37,365 nucleotides of DNA from the NCBI GenBank assembly GCA_023150915.1, contig JAKLKA010000065.1:1-37365 (forward strand), in the 5' to 3' direction. This DNA comes from Polyangiaceae bacterium (GTDB lineage Bacteria; Myxococcota_A; Polyangia; Polyangiales; Polyangiaceae). The stretch's first letter is position 1. The number at the start of each line of letters is the position of its first letter. The position numbers were made by a program, and so were the translations under genes. The notes beneath the pieces are model-generated. The model searched no databases and was not told where the DNA came from. It was given only the letters and a program-made list of their open reading frames with translations. Shown one piece after another: positions 1 to 37,365 of the stretch.

Positions 1-503
1 GTCGGCGGGGCCGGCGGGGTCGGGTCACCTGTCCCGGACCATGTTGATAACTCCGTCTGCGCCGGCACGGGCGCCACCGGGGTGATGGTCGTCGCCACGT
101 CCGGCCGCGGATACCGCCGAGCAATCAGCTCCTCGATCTGTCGCTTGGACTTGCCGCGCGCCTCGGCGAGGACTTGCTCGGCGTTGTCCTCTGTCAGGTG
201 GCCGGAGAGCAGAAACAGGCCGGTCAGGTGGATGGCGCCGCTCGCGAGGTCATCGAGCACCTGCGGAAAGCGCTGGACCAGGCGGGCCACCCGCACGCGC
301 TTGTTGGCACCGTCCTCGGAATACCCGAGGCGCTCCACGCAATACGCGAAGAGCGAGGAGCAGGCCTCTTCGAGGTAGAGCCGGCGGCGGTCGAGCTCGG
401 CCAGGTGGAAGATGACGTCCGCAGAGGCGAGGCGCTCACTGCTGACAGCAGCAGAGAGGCGCTGGCGGAGCTCGCGATCGGAGGCCGAGGAGAGAGCTTG
501 CAT
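1..503 (-). CDS. HNH-endonuclease-type protein, N-terminal part (runs off left edge)
   Basis: The reading frame is open from an ATG at 503 to the window edge (about 167 residues), so only the N-terminal part is present. The translation begins MQALSSASDRELRQRL and contains LAELDRRRLYLE, SSLFAYCVERLGYSEDGA, HLTGLFLLSGHLTEDNA and EARGKSKRQIEELIARR. This helical N-terminal region is one I recognise from the multicopy HNH endonuclease family of myxobacteria, in which a C-terminal HNH nuclease domain follows. That domain would lie outside the window, so nuclease function is inferred from the family. The visible part ends in a Pro/Thr/Ala-rich linker. The roughly 500 bp upstream hold no convincing gene and include the inverted repeat shared with the right edge, so a second, oppositely oriented copy probably lies just beyond 37365. 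The native role of the family is not known to me. Confidence 0.8.
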   Translation of the reverse strand, partial: MQALSSASDRELRQRLSAAVSSERLASADVIFHLAELDRRRLYLEEACSSLFAYCVERLGYSEDGANKRVRVARLVQRFPQVLDDLASGAIHLTGLFLLSGHLTEDNAEQVLAEARGKSKRQIEELIARRYPRPDVATTITPVAPVPAQTELSTWSGTGDPTPPAPP

Positions 504-553
504 GACTCTTCGCATACCACGTGGTTTTTTGCCCTCACCGCTGACACAAGGAG

Positions 554-1000
554 CGCGTTTCGAGCACCCGGACGCATCGAAAGTCGTCGCGCGCGCGAAA
601 CCGAGTGAGCGCTCGACGTCATGCGCGCACAGGCCAACTCCTCGGCGATCGACGCAGTGTGCGCGCGAGTCGCTCTGAAACGCGTCAACAAGATTCTTTG
701 CGTCGATGCTCTTTTTCGTAGAGACGCTGCTGGCGCGCCCCCGATGGAAGGGGCGCGCCGGATTGCCGTCAGTGGTCTGTGGCAGCGGCAGCGTCATGGG
801 CTCGCCGGCTCGCGAGGCGGCGCGACGCTTCGGGGTCGGAGCGGGGGTGAGCAGCACACCCCACGCACGCGGGAGGCGACCGAGTGGTGGTCACGGGCAC
901 GCCCGGGCAGGACCGGCACGACGGGACACGCGCCACGCCTCAACTGATCGAAGACGCGTCCCTTTTCGCAACCGTCCGGCCCGACTTCCGGGCGGGGATG
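554..1000. repeat. Left copy of a long inverted repeat (HNH-gene upstream region)
   Basis: Bases 554-822 match the reverse complement of 37097-37365 with only three mismatches over 269 bp. After a copy-specific segment, bases 948-1000 match the reverse complement of 37041-37093 with one mismatch. The repeat includes a strong hairpin at 732-759: 10-bp arms GGCGCGCCCC and GGGGCGCGCC around an 8-base loop. The near identity outside any clear gene suggests recent duplication, gene conversion or a mobile unit that includes the HNH gene. The right copy is cut by the window edge, so the full length of the repeat cannot be seen. The stretch 504-1015 otherwise holds no gene I can support. Confidence 0.9.
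823..947. other. 125-bp segment present only in the left repeat copy
   Basis: In the left copy, 125 bp separate the two blocks that match the right edge. In the right copy the same junction holds only three bases (37094-37096). The segment has no obvious terminal inverted repeats or target duplication that I can see, and no ORF specific to it looks coding. It is either an insertion here or a deletion in the right copy. Confidence 0.75.
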
Positions 1001-2391: not shown

Positions 2392-3234
2392 ATGTCGACC
2401 GAGGATGAGCGCAAGCTCTTCATAGCGGGCTTGCCGGATTCCATGACCGAGGACGTGCTGCGGCAGCTGTTCGAGGCGACCGGTGGAACGGTCGTCAACG
2501 TGACGTTGCCCAAGCACCGTGACACCGGCCGCCCACGCGGTTTCGGATTCGTCACCCTCGCAACATCCGATCAGGCGGCCGCGGCGCGTGACCAACTCGA
2601 CGGGTCGCTGCAAGCGGGCCGCTCGATCTCCGTTCGCCCGTTCCAGTCCGAACCACCGCGTCGTGATGCGCGCAGCGAGGCCCCCGGCGGTCCCGTCAGC
2701 AGCGCGAACACTGGCGATCGCACGCTTTACGTGGGCAATTTGCCTTACGACGCGGCGCAGGCCGATCTCGAAGCGATCTTCGCCGAGCACGGCGTTGCGC
2801 CGGTGGTGCGCATCCACCTGCCGGTGGGCCCCGACGGCCGCATGCGCGGTTTCGGCTTCGTCACCATGGGTAGCGCCGAGGCCGCGAACGAAGCCATCAC
2901 GGCGCTGCGCGGCGTCGAGATGAAGGGCCGCGGGCTGATGGTGAACATCGCGCACCCACGCGGCGATCGCCCGCCCATGAGCGGCGGTGATCGGCCTGGC
3001 TTCGGTGGCGGCGGCTTTGGTGGCGGCGGCGGCTACCCCGACTTTCCGTCGGCTCCGCCCGCGGACGCGAGCCGTGGCGGCGAGCGGCGCGGCCCGCCGG
3101 GCGGCGGCGGCGGCGGTCCGCCGCCGGCTCCGGACTGGGAAAAGAAGAAGAAGAAGCGCGGGAAGCTCGACCAGGGCGGCGCCAAGAAGGGCCGCGAGAA
3201 CCGCAAAGACTGGGAAGACTGGGACGAGGACTGA
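2392..3234 (+). CDS. Tandem-RRM RNA-binding protein with Gly-rich tail
   Basis: A 280-residue cytoplasmic RNA-binding protein. RRM1 (about residues 7-84) has RNP2 LFIAGL (9-14) and RNP1 RGFGFVTL (49-56). RRM2 (about 110-187) has RNP2 LYVGNL (112-117) and RNP1 RGFGFVTM (152-159). Both RNP1 motifs keep the aromatic residues that stack on RNA. A Gly-rich, RGG-like region follows (about 200-245), then a Lys run and an acidic end. Most bacterial RRM proteins have one RRM and about 80-130 residues, so the double RRM with a disordered tail is closer to eukaryotic hnRNP-like designs. The start ATG 2392 is preceded by an AACGAGGA-type site. The leader has a small hairpin at 2336-2350 (GAGCGG/CCGCTC). 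A role in mRNA folding or stability is inferred from the family. Confidence 0.92.
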   Translation: MSTEDERKLFIAGLPDSMTEDVLRQLFEATGGTVVNVTLPKHRDTGRPRGFGFVTLATSDQAAAARDQLDGSLQAGRSISVRPFQSEPPRRDARSEAPGGPVSSANTGDRTLYVGNLPYDAAQADLEAIFAEHGVAPVVRIHLPVGPDGRMRGFGFVTMGSAEAANEAITALRGVEMKGRGLMVNIAHPRGDRPPMSGGDRPGFGGGGFGGGGGYPDFPSAPPADASRGGERRGPPGGGGGGPPPAPDWEKKKKKRGKLDQGGAKKGRENRKDWEDWDED

Positions 3235-3296
3235 GCCTCCGCCACGGAAGGCCCCTGTTTTCTACTGTCCTCGCTGACCGGCCCGCTGGCCGCAGC

Positions 3297-3316
3297 GGCA
3301 ATCTGCGGCGATTGCC
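3297..3316 (+). terminator. Hairpin between the RRM gene and mreB
   Basis: Seven-base arms GGCAATC (3297-3303) and GATTGCC (3310-3316) enclose a six-base loop, 63 bp after the RRM stop codon. There is no T-run, so termination is only possible, not shown. A second short dyad, GGATGG/CCATCC at 3381-3394, lies closer to mreB and could be an operator. Confidence 0.35.
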
Positions 3317-3413
3317 TGGGGCGTCGCCGGCGTGCTACGACGGCGGGCCCGTTTTCCCCAGCGTCGGGGAGGTCCGGGTGGGATGGTCCCATCCGCGTCC
3401 GCCCGAGAAGTGA

Positions 3414-4451
<1,038 letters not shown>

Positions 4452-4488
4452 TCGTCGGCGCTCGCTCGAACGCGCCCAGGAGGTCTTC

Positions 4489-5367
4489 GTGAGCTCGCTC
4501 CGCCGCTACCGCGACATCATCATCGTGGTGCTGCTGCTCGCGGTGCCGTTCTTCTTCCTGCGTGCCAGCATCCGCCGGCCGGAAGAGATGAGCGTGGTCG
4601 ACCGTACCATCATGCGCGTCGCGGCGCCCCTCGAGTACGTGTCGGCGGCGCTGGCACGGGGCATCTCGTCGCTGGTGGGGGACTATGTCTACCTGGTCGA
4701 CGTCAAGAAGGACAACGACAAGCTGGCCTACGAGAACGCTCGGCTGCGCGCCGAGGTGCGCCAGCTCAAGAGCGCCGAGGCCGAGAACGTCCGCTTGCGG
4801 CGGCTCTTGAACCTGCGCGAGACGATCGCCGCCGAGACCGTCAGCGCCGTGGTGATCGGAAAAGACACGACCGAGTACTTCCGAGTGGCGCACGTCACCC
4901 TGGACAACCCCGGGGTGCAGGTGAAGCCCGGCATGCCGGTGCTGTCGTTCGATGGCACGGTGGGCACCGTGCTGCGCGTGGCCGGCGACAAGGTGGACGT
5001 CGAGCTGACGGTGGACAGCGGCTTCGGCGTGGACGTGACCGTCGAGCGCACCGGAGCGCGGGGCTTCGTCCGCGGCGTGGGCGATCGTAGCCGCTACGGC
5101 GTCCGGGTCGAGTACGTGCAGCGCAGCGACGAGGTGAACGTCGGCGACGTGCTGCTCACCAGCGGTGTGGGCTGCCGCTTCCCCAAGGGGGTGCCGGTGG
5201 CCCGGGTGAACAAGGTCGTCAAGCGGGACTTCGGCATGTACCAGTCGGTCGAAGCCGAGCCGACGGTGGACTTCTCTCGTCTCGAGGAGGTCATCATCGT
5301 GCTCTCGGACTCGAAGGACTGCGAGGCCAAGAGCGGCGGGCAACGCCGGCCGAGGGCCAAGCTCTGA
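4489..5367 (+). CDS. mreC: Rod-shape-determining protein MreC
   Basis: A 292-residue inner-membrane protein with a periplasmic domain that links MreB/MreD to PBP2. The start is GTG 4489, with a strong CAGGAGGT ribosome site four bases upstream. A transmembrane segment (about residues 8-25, IIIVVLLLAVPFFFLRA) is followed by a predicted coiled coil (about 70-105, KKDNDKLAYENARLRAEVRQ) and then the paired beta-barrel MreC core with GMPVLSFDGTVGTV and DVLLTSGVG. This is the standard MreC architecture and size. It sits between mreB and mreD, with only 7 bp to mreD. Confidence 0.97.
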   Translation: MSSLRRYRDIIIVVLLLAVPFFFLRASIRRPEEMSVVDRTIMRVAAPLEYVSAALARGISSLVGDYVYLVDVKKDNDKLAYENARLRAEVRQLKSAEAENVRLRRLLNLRETIAAETVSAVVIGKDTTEYFRVAHVTLDNPGVQVKPGMPVLSFDGTVGTVLRVAGDKVDVELTVDSGFGVDVTVERTGARGFVRGVGDRSRYGVRVEYVQRSDEVNVGDVLLTSGVGCRFPKGVPVARVNKVVKRDFGMYQSVEAEPTVDFSRLEEVIIVLSDSKDCEAKSGGQRRPRAKL

Positions 5368-10886: not shown

Positions 10887-11540
10887 ATGGGCATGGGTGC
10901 GAGCGCTGTACGAGCCGGCTTTGCGTTGGTCCTGTCGGGCTTGCTGACTGCGACGTGCGTGTCGAGCAGCGACGAGTCGAGCTTGGCCAGCGGCGGCTCG
11001 GGGGGCGCGGACGCATCTCTGGGCGGGGGAGGGGGCACGCCCGGCGGGGGAACTGGCGGAGGCGGCACGGGCGGCTCGGCAGGAAGCGACTCCGGCGCGA
11101 ACGGCGGTGGGGGCGGGGCAGGCGGCGGCTCGGCGGGAGCCGACTCGGCCGCCGGTGGCGCCGGGGCGGGTGGTGCCGGCGGAGCCGGCGGCTCGGGCTC
11201 CAGCGGTGGGGCAGGCGGAAGCGGCGGGGCCGGGACGGGTGGCGCCGGTGGCACCGGGGGAGGAACGGGCGGATCGAGCGGGGGAACCGGTGGCTCGAGC
11301 GGAGGAGCGGGCGGCTCGAGCGGAGGAACCGGTGGATCGAGCGGGGGAACCGGTGGCTCGAGCGGAGGAGCGGGCGGCTCGAGCGGTGGCGGCGGCACCG
11401 GGGGAGGCGCGTGCAACGTCCAAGCGTGCCCGACGCCCGCACCCCCTGCCGTGAAATGCTGCGTCACGGCGAACGGACCCTGCGGGCTGGACTTCGGGCA
11501 GGGCGCGGGCTGCCAGGTGCCGCCCACCGGCGACCTCTGA
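10887..11540 (+). CDS. Gly/Ser-rich lipoprotein with six-Cys C-terminal domain, paralogue 1
   Basis: A 217-residue predicted envelope protein. The start ATG 10887 has GGGAGG six bases upstream. An N-terminal signal (VRAGFALVLSGLLTATC) leads to Cys 24, a lipobox-like site although the -1 Thr is not ideal. About 140 residues of Gly/Ser/Ala/Thr repeats follow, including seven-residue GGSSGGT/A units. A compact C-terminal domain begins CNVQACPTP and contains KCCVTANGPCG and GCQV, six cysteines in all. The next gene has the same signal, spacer and domain, so they are tandem paralogues. The Cys domain could form three disulfides outside the inner membrane. No enzyme function is recognisable; a surface or scaffold role is only a guess. 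Confidence 0.8.
   Translation: MGMGASAVRAGFALVLSGLLTATCVSSSDESSLASGGSGGADASLGGGGGTPGGGTGGGGTGGSAGSDSGANGGGGGAGGGSAGADSAAGGAGAGGAGGAGGSGSSGGAGGSGGAGTGGAGGTGGGTGGSSGGTGGSSGGAGGSSGGTGGSSGGTGGSSGGAGGSSGGGGTGGGACNVQACPTPAPPAVKCCVTANGPCGLDFGQGAGCQVPPTGDL
11271..11396 (+). repeat. 63-bp coding tandem repeat in lipoprotein 1
   Basis: A 63-bp unit starting at 11271 is repeated at 11334. The first 53 bases of the two units are identical (11271-11323 and 11334-11386). Each unit is made of three 21-bp subunits coding for GGSSGGT or GGSSGGA. The identity at silent sites indicates recent slippage or unequal exchange, so the linker length is likely to vary between strains. Confidence 0.85.
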
Positions 11541-20202: not shown

Positions 20203-20862
20203 ATGTCGAAAATGTGGCACCACTACCAGGCCGGCGGATGGGCGATGTGGATCATCCTGTTCTGGCTGATCTGCAGCATCACCATCATCGCCGAGCGCGC
20301 CGTCTACCTGTACGGAGCCTCCATCAACAAGGAGGTGTTCCTCGCCACCATGCAGAAGTGCATCCTGGCAGGTGACGTCGCCAAAGCAGTGAAGATGGCG
20401 TCGGCGGCCAATGCCCCGCTCGCGCGCATCGTCCAGTCCGGTCTCGTGAAGGTGAACCGGCCCGACGAAGAAGTGCAGGCGGCCATGGACGAGGCAGCGC
20501 TGCGTGAGATGCCCCGCATCAACCGCCGCACCGGGTACCTGGCGCTGTTCGCCAACCTGGCGATGCTCTCGGGCCTGTTCGGCACCATCGTCGGCCTGAT
20601 CAAGGCATTCGGCGCCGTCGGTGGTGAGTCGGTCGATCCGAGCCAGAAGGCCCGCATCCTCGCAGAAGGTATCTCCGAGGCAATGAACTGCACGGCCTTC
20701 GGCCTGATCTCGGCCATCGTGGCGCTGATGGGCTTCGCCTTCTTGAACGGCAAGACCCAGGCGCTCGAAGACGACATCAACGAGGCCTCGGTCCAGGTGC
20801 TCAACCTGGTCGTGGCGAACCGCCAGAAGGTCAGCCTGCAAGGCCTGGAGCAGGCGGCCTGA
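20203..20862 (+). CDS. ExbB/TolQ/MotA-family proton-channel subunit (rightward module)
   Basis: A 219-residue membrane protein with three segments: about 12-36 (GWAMWIILFWLICSITIIAE), about 111-138 (LFANLAMLSGLFGTIVGLIK) and about 161-183 (NCTAFGLISAIVALMGFAF). The GLFGTIVGLI and TAFGLISAI segments correspond to the TolQ/ExbB channel helices. A ribosome site, AGGGGAAGG, lies about 10 bases before ATG 20203. It is only distantly similar to the leftward ExbB, so the two modules are not a recent duplication. It is followed by a terminator-like hairpin and then two exbD-like genes. Confidence 0.93.
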   Translation: MSKMWHHYQAGGWAMWIILFWLICSITIIAERAVYLYGASINKEVFLATMQKCILAGDVAKAVKMASAANAPLARIVQSGLVKVNRPDEEVQAAMDEAALREMPRINRRTGYLALFANLAMLSGLFGTIVGLIKAFGAVGGESVDPSQKARILAEGISEAMNCTAFGLISAIVALMGFAFLNGKTQALEDDINEASVQVLNLVVANRQKVSLQGLEQAA

Positions 20863-20876
20863 GCCGCGCGCGAATC

Positions 20877-20901
20877 GGGGGAAGGGCTCGGGCCTTCCCC
20901 C
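20877..20901 (+). terminator. Attenuator-like hairpin between exbB and exbD
   Basis: Nine-base perfect arms GGGGGAAGG (20877-20885) and CCTTCCCCC (20893-20901) with a seven-base loop lie 15 bp after the exbB-like stop. The following bases (TTCGTGCTCTCG) are only moderately T-rich. Partial termination here would make more ExbB than ExbD, which fits the excess of ExbB in known channels (five to two). That regulatory role is inference. Confidence 0.6.
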
Positions 20902-20941
20902 TTCGTGCTCTCGACTTCTTCCCACAGGACTAGGAGCGGAC

Positions 20942-21508
20942 ATGGCTGGTATCGATACCGGAGGCGGACACGGCAAAGGTCGCGCCACCAATCACGAGAT
21001 CCCTCTGATCCCGTTCATCGACTTCCTCCTCTGCCTCGTTGCGTTCTTGTTGGTGACCGCCGTCTGGTCGCAGATGGCGCGCATCAATGCCGACGCTCGA
21101 GTCCCCGGGCCGCCCAAGCCCGACGAGGAAGTGGAGAAGCAGCAGAAGGAAAAGCAGCTCCACGTCGAGATGCGCGGCGAGCGCAAGTTCCAGCTGGTCT
21201 GGAAAGAGGGCAGCACGGTCGTCAACACCATCGACGTCGAGCGCAAGCCGGTGAAGGTGGGCGAAGAGACGCGCTACCCCGACCTGGCCAAGAAGATCAG
21301 CGAAGAGTGGACTGCCAACGGCAGCCACCGCGCGGGCACGGACCAGAAGCTCGATCAGGCGGTGCTCCACACCGACAACTCGACGCAGTTCCACGACGTG
21401 ATCGCGGTGATCGACGCCATCTACACGCCTCAACGTGACTGGAACCCACCGGGCGGCGGCGCCCCCAAGAAGATCCCGTCCTTCAACGTCACCTTCGCGG
21501 TGAACTGA
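20942..21508 (+). CDS. ExbD/TolR-family proton-channel subunit (rightward module, first)
   Basis: A 188-residue protein beginning at ATG 20942 after an AGGAG site. The helix NHEIPLIPFIDFLLCLVAFLL holds Asp 27, the expected proton carrier. The peptide NHEIPLIPFIDFLLC is shared exactly with the next gene, so the two are paralogues within one operon. After the helix comes a charged stretch rich in Lys/Glu (PPKPDEEVEKQQKEKQ), likely a periplasmic linker, then an ExbD-like domain ending near HDVIAVIDAIYTP. The charged linker is longer than usual. Confidence 0.88.
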   Translation: MAGIDTGGGHGKGRATNHEIPLIPFIDFLLCLVAFLLVTAVWSQMARINADARVPGPPKPDEEVEKQQKEKQLHVEMRGERKFQLVWKEGSTVVNTIDVERKPVKVGEETRYPDLAKKISEEWTANGSHRAGTDQKLDQAVLHTDNSTQFHDVIAVIDAIYTPQRDWNPPGGGAPKKIPSFNVTFAVN

Positions 21509-21516
21509 GCACAGCG

Positions 21517-22104
21517 ATGTCGGAAAAAGCTCTCTCTCGCTTCGAGCAGCCGATCAGCGTCCCGGGGCGGCGCCTGTTGCACCACATTCCGCTGCATTTC
21601 GTGGTCAAGAAGGTGGTCGGCGGTGGGCACCGCGCGTCCAACCACGAGATCCCGCTGATCCCGTTCATCGACTTCCTCCTGTGCATCGTGCTCTTCCTCC
21701 TGGCCAGCTTCTCTGCCAGCGGTGAGCTGCCGATCGACAAGAACGTGCAGCTGCCCAAGGCCGAGAACGTCCTCGACATGACCGAGGCGCCGATGGTGGC
21801 CATCACCGGCACGCAGATCCTGGTCGACGGCGTGCCGGCCGGTAACACCCGAGCCATCGAGGAGGCGAACCGCCTGCAGCGCATCGACGAGCTGTTCAAC
21901 ATCCTGAAGAACAAGCGCGAGCTGTGGAAGCAGATCAACCCGGGCAAGGAATTCCCCGGGGTGGCCATCCTGCAGGTGGACAAGAAGGTGCCCGCGCTCG
22001 TGGTCAAGAGCGTGTTCCAGACCGCTGCGTTCGCCGGCTTCCCGAACATCAGCTTCATGGTGGGTCGCCTGGGTGGTCCGGGCGGCGAGGGCGGCGGGCA
22101 CTGA
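21517..22104 (+). CDS. ExbD/TolR-family proton-channel subunit (rightward module, second)
   Basis: A 195-residue paralogue of the preceding gene, 8 bp downstream. It has a longer basic cytoplasmic N-terminus (about 40 residues, including GRRLLHHIPLHFVVKKV), then the same helix start NHEIPLIPFIDFLLC with Asp 52. The periplasmic domain carries VAITGTQILVDGVPAG and VAILQVDKKVPALVVKSVFQTA, which fit the ExbD/TolR fold, and a Gly-rich end. One ExbB plus two different ExbD proteins is the composition of the AglRQS gliding/sporulation motor of Myxococcus xanthus. I use that as an analogy, not proof of function. The operon is closed by a strong hairpin at 22148. Confidence 0.88.
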   Translation: MSEKALSRFEQPISVPGRRLLHHIPLHFVVKKVVGGGHRASNHEIPLIPFIDFLLCIVLFLLASFSASGELPIDKNVQLPKAENVLDMTEAPMVAITGTQILVDGVPAGNTRAIEEANRLQRIDELFNILKNKRELWKQINPGKEFPGVAILQVDKKVPALVVKSVFQTAAFAGFPNISFMVGRLGGPGGEGGGH

Positions 22105-36935: not shown

Positions 36936-37040
36936 GGCCGTTCAACCTAGCACTCTTGTCGTGGGCTCGCGCCGGCGGCGAAGATTCCCCCGGGCACCCG
37001 CCGGGGGGCCGCTGGCGCGAACCCGGCGAGCGGTGGGCCA

Positions 37041-37365
37041 CATCCCCGCCCGGAAGTCGGGCCGGACGGTTGCGAAAAGGGAAGCGTCTTCGAGCACGCC
37101 GCCTCGCGAGCCGGCGAGCCCATGACGCTGCCGCTGCCACAGACCACGGACGGCAATCCGGCGCGCCCCTTCCATCGGGGGCGCGCCAGCAGCGTCTCTA
37201 CGAAAAAGAGCATCGACGCAAAGATTCTTGTTGACGCGTTTCAGAGCGACTCGCGCGCACACTGCGTCGATCGCCGAGGAGTTGGCCTGTGCGCGCATGA
37301 CGTCGAGCGCTCACTCGGTTTCGCGCGCGCGACGACTTTCGACGCGTCCGGGTGCTCGAAACGCG
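37041..37365. repeat. Right copy of the long inverted repeat (truncated by window edge)
   Basis: Bases 37097-37365 are the reverse complement of 554-822 with three mismatches in 269 bp, and 37041-37093 the reverse complement of 948-1000 with one mismatch. Only three bases (37094-37096) separate the two blocks here, against 125 in the left copy. The 10-bp-arm hairpin is present in both. The match reaches the last base of the window, so it continues outside, probably into a rightward HNH-type gene. The gap 36936-37040 shows no gene. Confidence 0.9.

Follow-up and report, generated by a model that had tools for sequence, protein, structure and literature searches.

Insertion sequences of the ISAs1 family are 1.2-1.5 kb long, carry a transposase alone and usually generate a target duplication of 8-10 bp. 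In IscB systems, which work with an omegaRNA, an HNH domain adjoins a structured element. The nearest analogue met in the literature surveyed, and the sole close one, is KolobokP, an animal DDD/E transposon with a His-Me finger endonuclease, as it is presented in the available part of its description (PMC9587614). Class C group II introns are also relevant, because the portions of the two accounts at hand describe them as inserting at intrinsic terminators (PMC4424553) and as landing at attC sites too (PMC4424553, PMC7923331).

The window, meaning the whole 37,365-nt stretch of DNA analysed here, is an entire contig (C3) of a genome of 8.0 Mb in 295 contigs (G000). The contig begins within one copy of a repeat and finishes within another. 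We read positions 504-1000 as the left ends of two mobile units nested one inside the other, an ISAs1-like transposon and an HNH cassette, and not as a stand-alone RNA leader; for this structural reading as a whole we put the probability at about 0.85.

The outer unit resembles the ISAs1 family in a remnant that matches the DDE transposase profile (NF033564) just under the cut-off, its short inverted ends and its 10-bp target duplication. It differs in having an HNH cassette aboard, in its length (about 2.9 kb in G001, a genome of the same genus, and 5.1 kb with an intron) and in a transposase that is broken or partial where read. In a third genome, also of that genus (G002), the same HNH cassette is hosted by an element with remnants of an IS1182-family transposase (NF033551), and the cassette is again what sets the element apart from that family. 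Like IscB with its omegaRNA, the locus has an HNH domain adjoining a structured element, but there is no IscB-level match here and the motif flanks the gene on both sides. Both this element and KolobokP are DNA transposons of composite-like build that encode an HNH-superfamily nuclease as well. According to the same part of its description, however, KolobokP is eukaryotic and has long terminal direct repeats, whereas the inner repeats here are inverted and hairpin-bearing (PMC9587614). No paper that brings together ISAs1, an HNH endonuclease and a transposon was found in the open-access literature searched. The leader is ordinary as a transposon end; the new part is the nested, hairpin-framed nuclease cassette common to two transposon families, which looks like a new variant among known mobile elements. 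The features of the window are these:

1-503, minus strand: 5' part of an HNH-family gene that runs off the contig start, with an ATG at 503 and an alternative in-frame ATG at 515 (open reading frame, profile, codon bias)
504-716, minus strand: non-coding, between motif and start codon, inside the cassette (no codon bias in 504-700; homology to G001 and G002)
717-801, minus strand: left terminal motif of the HNH cassette, 85 nt, with the hairpin on the gene side (motif searches, fold z)
732-759, no strand: hairpin with 10-bp arms GGCGCGCCCC/GGGGCGCGCC, covarying helix (sequence, covariation, shuffles)
802-1000, minus strand: left end of the ISAs1-like transposon, outside the cassette (end pattern, target duplications)
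823-944, no strand: segment absent from the short form (comparison with copy 2, own-genome matches)
988-1000, minus strand: left terminal inverted repeat CATCCCCGCCCGG, the right end being CCGATCGGGAGTG (end alignments and patterns)
1001-1010, no strand: 10-bp target duplication, CCCGACTGGG on the minus strand, with its partner beside a right end on contig C266 (L105) (flank pairing)
37031-37040, no strand: 10-bp target duplication CGGTGGGCCA of copy 2, with its partner in contig C85 (L173) (flank pairing)
37041-37365, plus strand: left end of the second copy, cut by the contig end (own-genome matches, left-end pattern)
37118-37205, plus strand: hairpin motif, second copy (motif search)

The outer layer: an ISAs1-like transposon

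The second copy lies inverted at the opposite end of the window. BLAST aligns 554-822 with 37097-37365 at 99% identity and 945-1000 with a second block of copy 2, 37041-37096, at 96%. Copy 2 is without 823-944 and hits the contig end at the position equivalent to 554, leaving 325 bases in common. The sequence-only reading, which had about 500 bp kept nearly unchanged between two copies, was therefore correct about the existence of two closely similar copies but too generous about their extent. The loss of 823-944 is common to 17 places among the matches listed, window copy 2 included. The own genome has at least 65 BLAST matches to the repeat (40 of 146 first-look candidates scored). Elsewhere in the window, 20203-22104 holds a MotA/ExbB gene with two adjacent ExbD genes behind it, and 11238-11399 holds tandem 21-bp repeats that resemble Gly/Ser-rich coding sequence.

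The ends of the transposon are sharply marked. Positions 938-1000 match the left end of the G001 elements, and 26 of 29 listed left ends begin exactly with CATCCCCGCCCGG, the other 3 being one base off, and the flanks vary. A 29-base left-end pattern (up to 3 mismatches) occurs at 39 places in the own genome and a 33-base right-end pattern at 37, with 0 in the control for each; the two ends are imperfect inverted repeats of 13-14 bp. When the 10 bases immediately preceding each left end were compared with the 10 that follow each right end (39 x 37), 22 of the 39 left flanks paired one-to-one with 22 of the 37 right flanks by a 10-bp duplication, 21 of them exactly and 1 with a single mismatch. 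Exact widths of 8, 9, 11, 12 and 13 gave 0 pairs, and six shifted registers gave 0-1. Both window copies belong to the 22 paired ends; 17 left and 15 right ends are unpaired. Two pairs fall on single contigs, C177 and C291, where they delimit short but complete elements, about 205 bp and about 304 bp long respectively, and many own-genome copies are internally deleted with the left edge unchanged. At least three contigs (C217, C235, C149) continue into element sequence past the left end while the duplication partner is on another contig, so the assembled copies there may be chimeric or recombined.

Beyond the right end, a TT at +19/+20 is found at 15 of 37 own-genome ends, against at most 3 for any other position from +11 to +50, and at 11 of the 16 right ends read in G001. 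This TT is an orientation-specific target preference. A CTTG version of it, 19-20 bp past the right end, was seen in 9 of the 37 own-genome flanks.

The G001 element (about 2.9 kb) displays the order left end, leader, HNH gene, transposase remnant and right end GAGAACCGATCGAGACTG. The remnant, in the right part, matches the C-terminal half only of the ISAs1 transposase (NF033564, E 5.8e-19, 68.4 bits against a cut-off of 70), and an N-terminal Pfam match (PF13808) scores 21.6 against a cut-off of 32.3. No undamaged transposase was seen among the subset of copies that were read, those read being broken or partial. Under the nested-end reading, the transposon would move as one unit via its ends, with the HNH cassette nested within it. 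Because no undamaged gene was seen, transposition is now probably carried out by a transposase supplied in trans. The 10-bp target duplications point to recent transposition as the reason why the copies are nearly identical.

The inner layer: a motif-framed nuclease cassette

The inner layer occupies 504-801 in the window and is the left edge of the HNH cassette. Upstream of the HNH gene stands the 85-nt motif, which is repeated, inverted, directly after the stop codon, and the inner unit is a cassette of about 1.6 kb consisting of motif, HNH gene and inverted motif. The motif search of G001 listed 42 matches, made up of 17 inward-facing pairs, each enclosing a full or partial HNH match, 1 pair around a tyrosine recombinase and 6 single motifs.

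The borders of the cassette can be read from cross-genome BLAST comparisons. On the left, cassette homology begins -23 to +8 bp from the motif edge: in G000 against G001 or G002 it begins at positions 500-508 (motif 500-583), with a common transposon end further out, beyond the left motif edge, for G000 and G001, and in G001 against G002 it begins 23 bp outside the motif. On the right, homology between G000 and G001 stops exactly at the motif edge (2388 of 2311-2388; 182 of 105-182), and past the edge at 182 transposase homology between these two genomes resumes 42 bp on. Right homology between G001 and two G002 elements runs 13-14 bp beyond the motif edge, and it halts within the motif in most matches of G000 to G002 and in G001 against L086 (the right-border comparison of L036 relies on contig C235, one of the possible chimeras). 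These limits of homology place the two borders of the cassette at the motif pair, give or take a few tens of bases.

The part of the gene in the window, its first 167 or so codons, matches only DUF222, at 17.3 bits and thus below the cut-off of 24.4. An HNH domain is present in the homologous G001 genes (PF01844, 26.0-26.3 bits, cut-off 21.4), and the frame is open in one of them (L254, 26.0 bits). The earlier label of an HNH-type gene is thus borne out by the G001 homologues and not by the window fragment itself. Mismatches of the window gene part to its relatives in G001 and G002 concentrate at the third codon position. Compared with G002 L251, it has mismatches at 29, 16 and 58 of 168, 168 and 167 sites at codon positions 1, 2 and 3; judged by its sequence, the N-terminal part of the predicted HNH protein is under constraint. 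Positions 504-700 compared with their relatives have 19, 19 and 23 mismatches of 64, 65 and 66, without the strong third-position bias of the gene, and this agrees with the proposal that the leader is non-coding, for the 504-700 portion tested. A second HNH subfamily is represented by two loci on G000 contigs C20 and C45 (L215 and L250), an open gene that lies at the end of its contig and a degenerate copy; neither stretch yielded the hairpin motif. An HNH gene with a degenerate left motif at L249 (G002 C7), where the right motif was not found, is perhaps a free-standing or decayed cassette.

In G002 the cassette travels in different company. The elements L088 and L087 (= L251) carry IS1182 transposase remnants, with NF033551 fragment matches (E 1.8e-33 and 2.2e-12, respectively) that are both below the 270-bit full-length cut-off. 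L088 ends near TCAGAGGCTGTGAAA / TTTCTCAGCCTCTCA. A third G002 element, L086, shares these ends, and the stretch it interrupts runs unbroken in G001. BLAST found no match between the four cassette stretches of G002 and the left end of ISAs1 type; G002 carries such ends elsewhere. The motif pair also encloses a tyrosine recombinase, in G001 at L253 (C1:1040000-1047500; PF00589, 43.8 bits, cut-off 27.1) and in G000 at C259:17139-27049, where the copy has 90% DNA identity. HNH cassettes and the L253 island alike have their hairpins inward and a conserved flank outward, and tRNA-Leu is present at 6 of the 10 motif-framed recombinase-type loci scanned. L253 also has a perfect 24-bp palindrome, GTTTCGGGGAAGCTTCCCCGAAAC, immediately beyond its right motif.

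The motif pair could also mark the true ends of an independently mobile HNH cassette, a portable nuclease module whose inverted, covarying hairpin repeats move as a unit between ISAs1-type and IS1182-type transposons. The exchange or copying between these unrelated transposons would then be driven by the HNH endonuclease itself or by the folded ends and a factor that acts on hairpins. Borders at or near the inverted motifs, residence in both types of element, a tyrosine recombinase framed by the same motif pair and the constraint on the HNH protein would all fit. We nevertheless regard this alternative as unlikely, although a serious contender, since ordinary recombination between insertion sequences could yield the same picture and, in a survey short of a systematic search, no solitary cassette with a target duplication of its own was noticed.

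The hairpin: fold, covariation and candidate roles

The hairpin with 10-bp arms that had been proposed at 732-759 is exact in sequence, the arms occupying 732-741 and 750-759. Relative to 200 shuffles, folding of 36 nt gives a z of -4.55 and that of the 85-nt motif (717-801) a z of -5.77, with 0/200 shuffles in each case; the whole 497-nt leader, at -0.61, is no better than shuffles. Three copies from elsewhere fold less strikingly (z of -2.21, -2.76 and -1.79), and an Rfam scan of the window at gathering score returned 0 matches.

Two alignments bear on whether the helix is maintained. The first (A1) has 22 rows from 48 distinct motif sequences, leaving out near-duplicates, truncated copies and G002 copies with a long loop insert; in the helix 95.4% of its cells are paired and 20 are double-change cells, against 6.4 in shuffles (0/500). 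The second (A2) also has 22 rows, 16 of them from A1 and 6 of island type (L280 and L271 diverge in the 5' half), with 97.4% of helix cells paired and 24 double-change cells against 6.0 in shuffles (0/500). Slid controls of A2 reach at most 4 double-change cells, a comparison in which the hairpin has an advantage because its columns were fixed on the window sequence. Three pairs covary, one with all four Watson-Crick types, another with three and another with two. The numbers of covarying pairs and of pair types are no better than in shuffles (377 and 318 of 500 for A2, 452 and 498 of 500 for A1), and the covariation is built on few events, at least six double changes if each pair type arose once. 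Because these counts do not exceed shuffles and the sequences are related, the case that the helix has been kept with compensatory change, across three genomes, both gene sides and two element types, is good but not overwhelming. Palindromes can also be preserved by templated repair.

The outer stem of the motif has no double change and is not above shuffles, so the hairpin alone is claimed; a three-way junction in the fold of 717-801 was dropped on the same ground. The check for compensatory change suggested by the sequence-only reading supports the hairpin helix and fails for the outer stem. That reading had also taken conservation of the leader as a possible sign that the region encodes a structured RNA, serves as a recombination site or acts as a regulatory leader. 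A covarying hairpin (helix only) and mobile-element ends are indeed present, but the identity between copies is explained by recent transposition.

A group II intron provides a further clue to what the hairpin resembles. At L254 and L255 in G001 the intron (RF02001, 115.3 bits; RF01998, 50.3 bits; RVT_1 and GIIM) begins 8 nt after the left hairpin and in the same orientation; these loci are near-identical copies of one element, so the insertion counts as one event. At L254 it spans 2704-4541, and its reverse transcriptase is split over two reading frames. The intron is probably of class C, judged by its position and by the lack of a match to an endonuclease domain rather than by a tree. Group IIC target sites, as covered in the available portions of two papers (PMC4424553, PMC7923331), likewise have a stem-loop directly upstream of the insertion point, but the hairpin here is without a T-run.

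The stable, GC-rich stem-loop of an intrinsic terminator is present (z -4.55, covariation). A T-run was sought in the sequence on either side of the hairpin and is absent, so the hairpin is not a canonical intrinsic terminator, which speaks against a classical terminator. Inward-facing hairpins with a conserved flank outside nonetheless have the appearance expected of an insulator that blocks incoming transcription. We tentatively propose, at rather less than even odds, that the hairpins are putative inward-facing, terminator-like transcription insulators, which would keep outside transcripts (for example from a tRNA-Leu promoter) out of the cassette on either strand. A generic host terminator or REP-like repeat was considered and rejected: across 10 genomes, with 150 candidates scored per genome, the R2 search produced matches at E <= 0.01 in the 3 genomes of the own genus alone and in 0 of 7 others, where the best had E 0.138. 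Weaker R2 matches in the own genus include G000 C271 and G001 C2:2330198.

Distribution, remaining alternatives and meaning

HNH homologues (E <= 1e-20) are found in 9 of 60 family genomes. The motif (E <= 0.001; Infernal with stricter filters, 72 candidates scored per genome) is found only in the 3 genomes of the own genus, and the six other-genus genomes with HNH homologues have no motif match at these thresholds. At E <= 1e-4, a stitched ISAs1 query detected no neighbour in 11 HNH stretches from other genera (five in G073, two each in G055 and G042, one each in G008 and G067). A scan of the contigs of named relatives yielded one true relative (Myxococcota bacterium MAG.78, L311) and a weak HNH-domain match (L312).

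The tyrosine-recombinase islands raise the question of an attachment-type site, in which the folded hairpin would be a recombinase substrate as attC is for IntI. The motif is near tRNA-Leu in these islands, and class C introns also land at attC in the portions of the accounts cited above (PMC4424553, PMC7923331). However, location of the islands beside tRNA-Leu suggests that the exchange point would be in the tRNA and not in the motif, and the HNH transposons move with 10-bp duplications; such a site is improbable. Slightly more improbable still is plain recent duplication, with the leader conserved only through young copies and the hairpin incidental. Most of the own-genome matches listed are 95-100% identical and many are flanked by target duplications, as this explanation would have it, but compensatory hairpin changes occur across three genomes, on either side of the gene and in two types of element, and they count against it unless templated palindrome repair explains every double change.

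The pairing of an HNH nuclease with a structured RNA, in which a leader-encoded guide or cofactor would work with the nuclease as in IscB/omegaRNA, would fit a covarying hairpin near an HNH gene and might draw on the weak IscB profile match of the HNH core (27.6 bits, model positions 181-254 of 314 only), but it is very hard to sustain with that score against a cut-off of 175 bits, a motif that frames a tyrosine recombinase too, that stands inverted on both sides of the gene (17 such pairs in G001) and that has no match at E <= 0.001 in the six other-genus genomes with HNH homologues.

The locus carries a caution: a conserved, structured leader next to an HNH gene does not have to mean an RNA-guided system. 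If the portable-module alternative were true, it would amount to a bacterial "transposon within transposons" whose hairpin ends are common to tyrosine-recombinase islands. One hairpin-framed nuclease cassette occurs across two unrelated transposon families, with its end motif also in integrase islands, and this gives a concrete way to test how mobile elements protect their accessory genes and swap them with one another.
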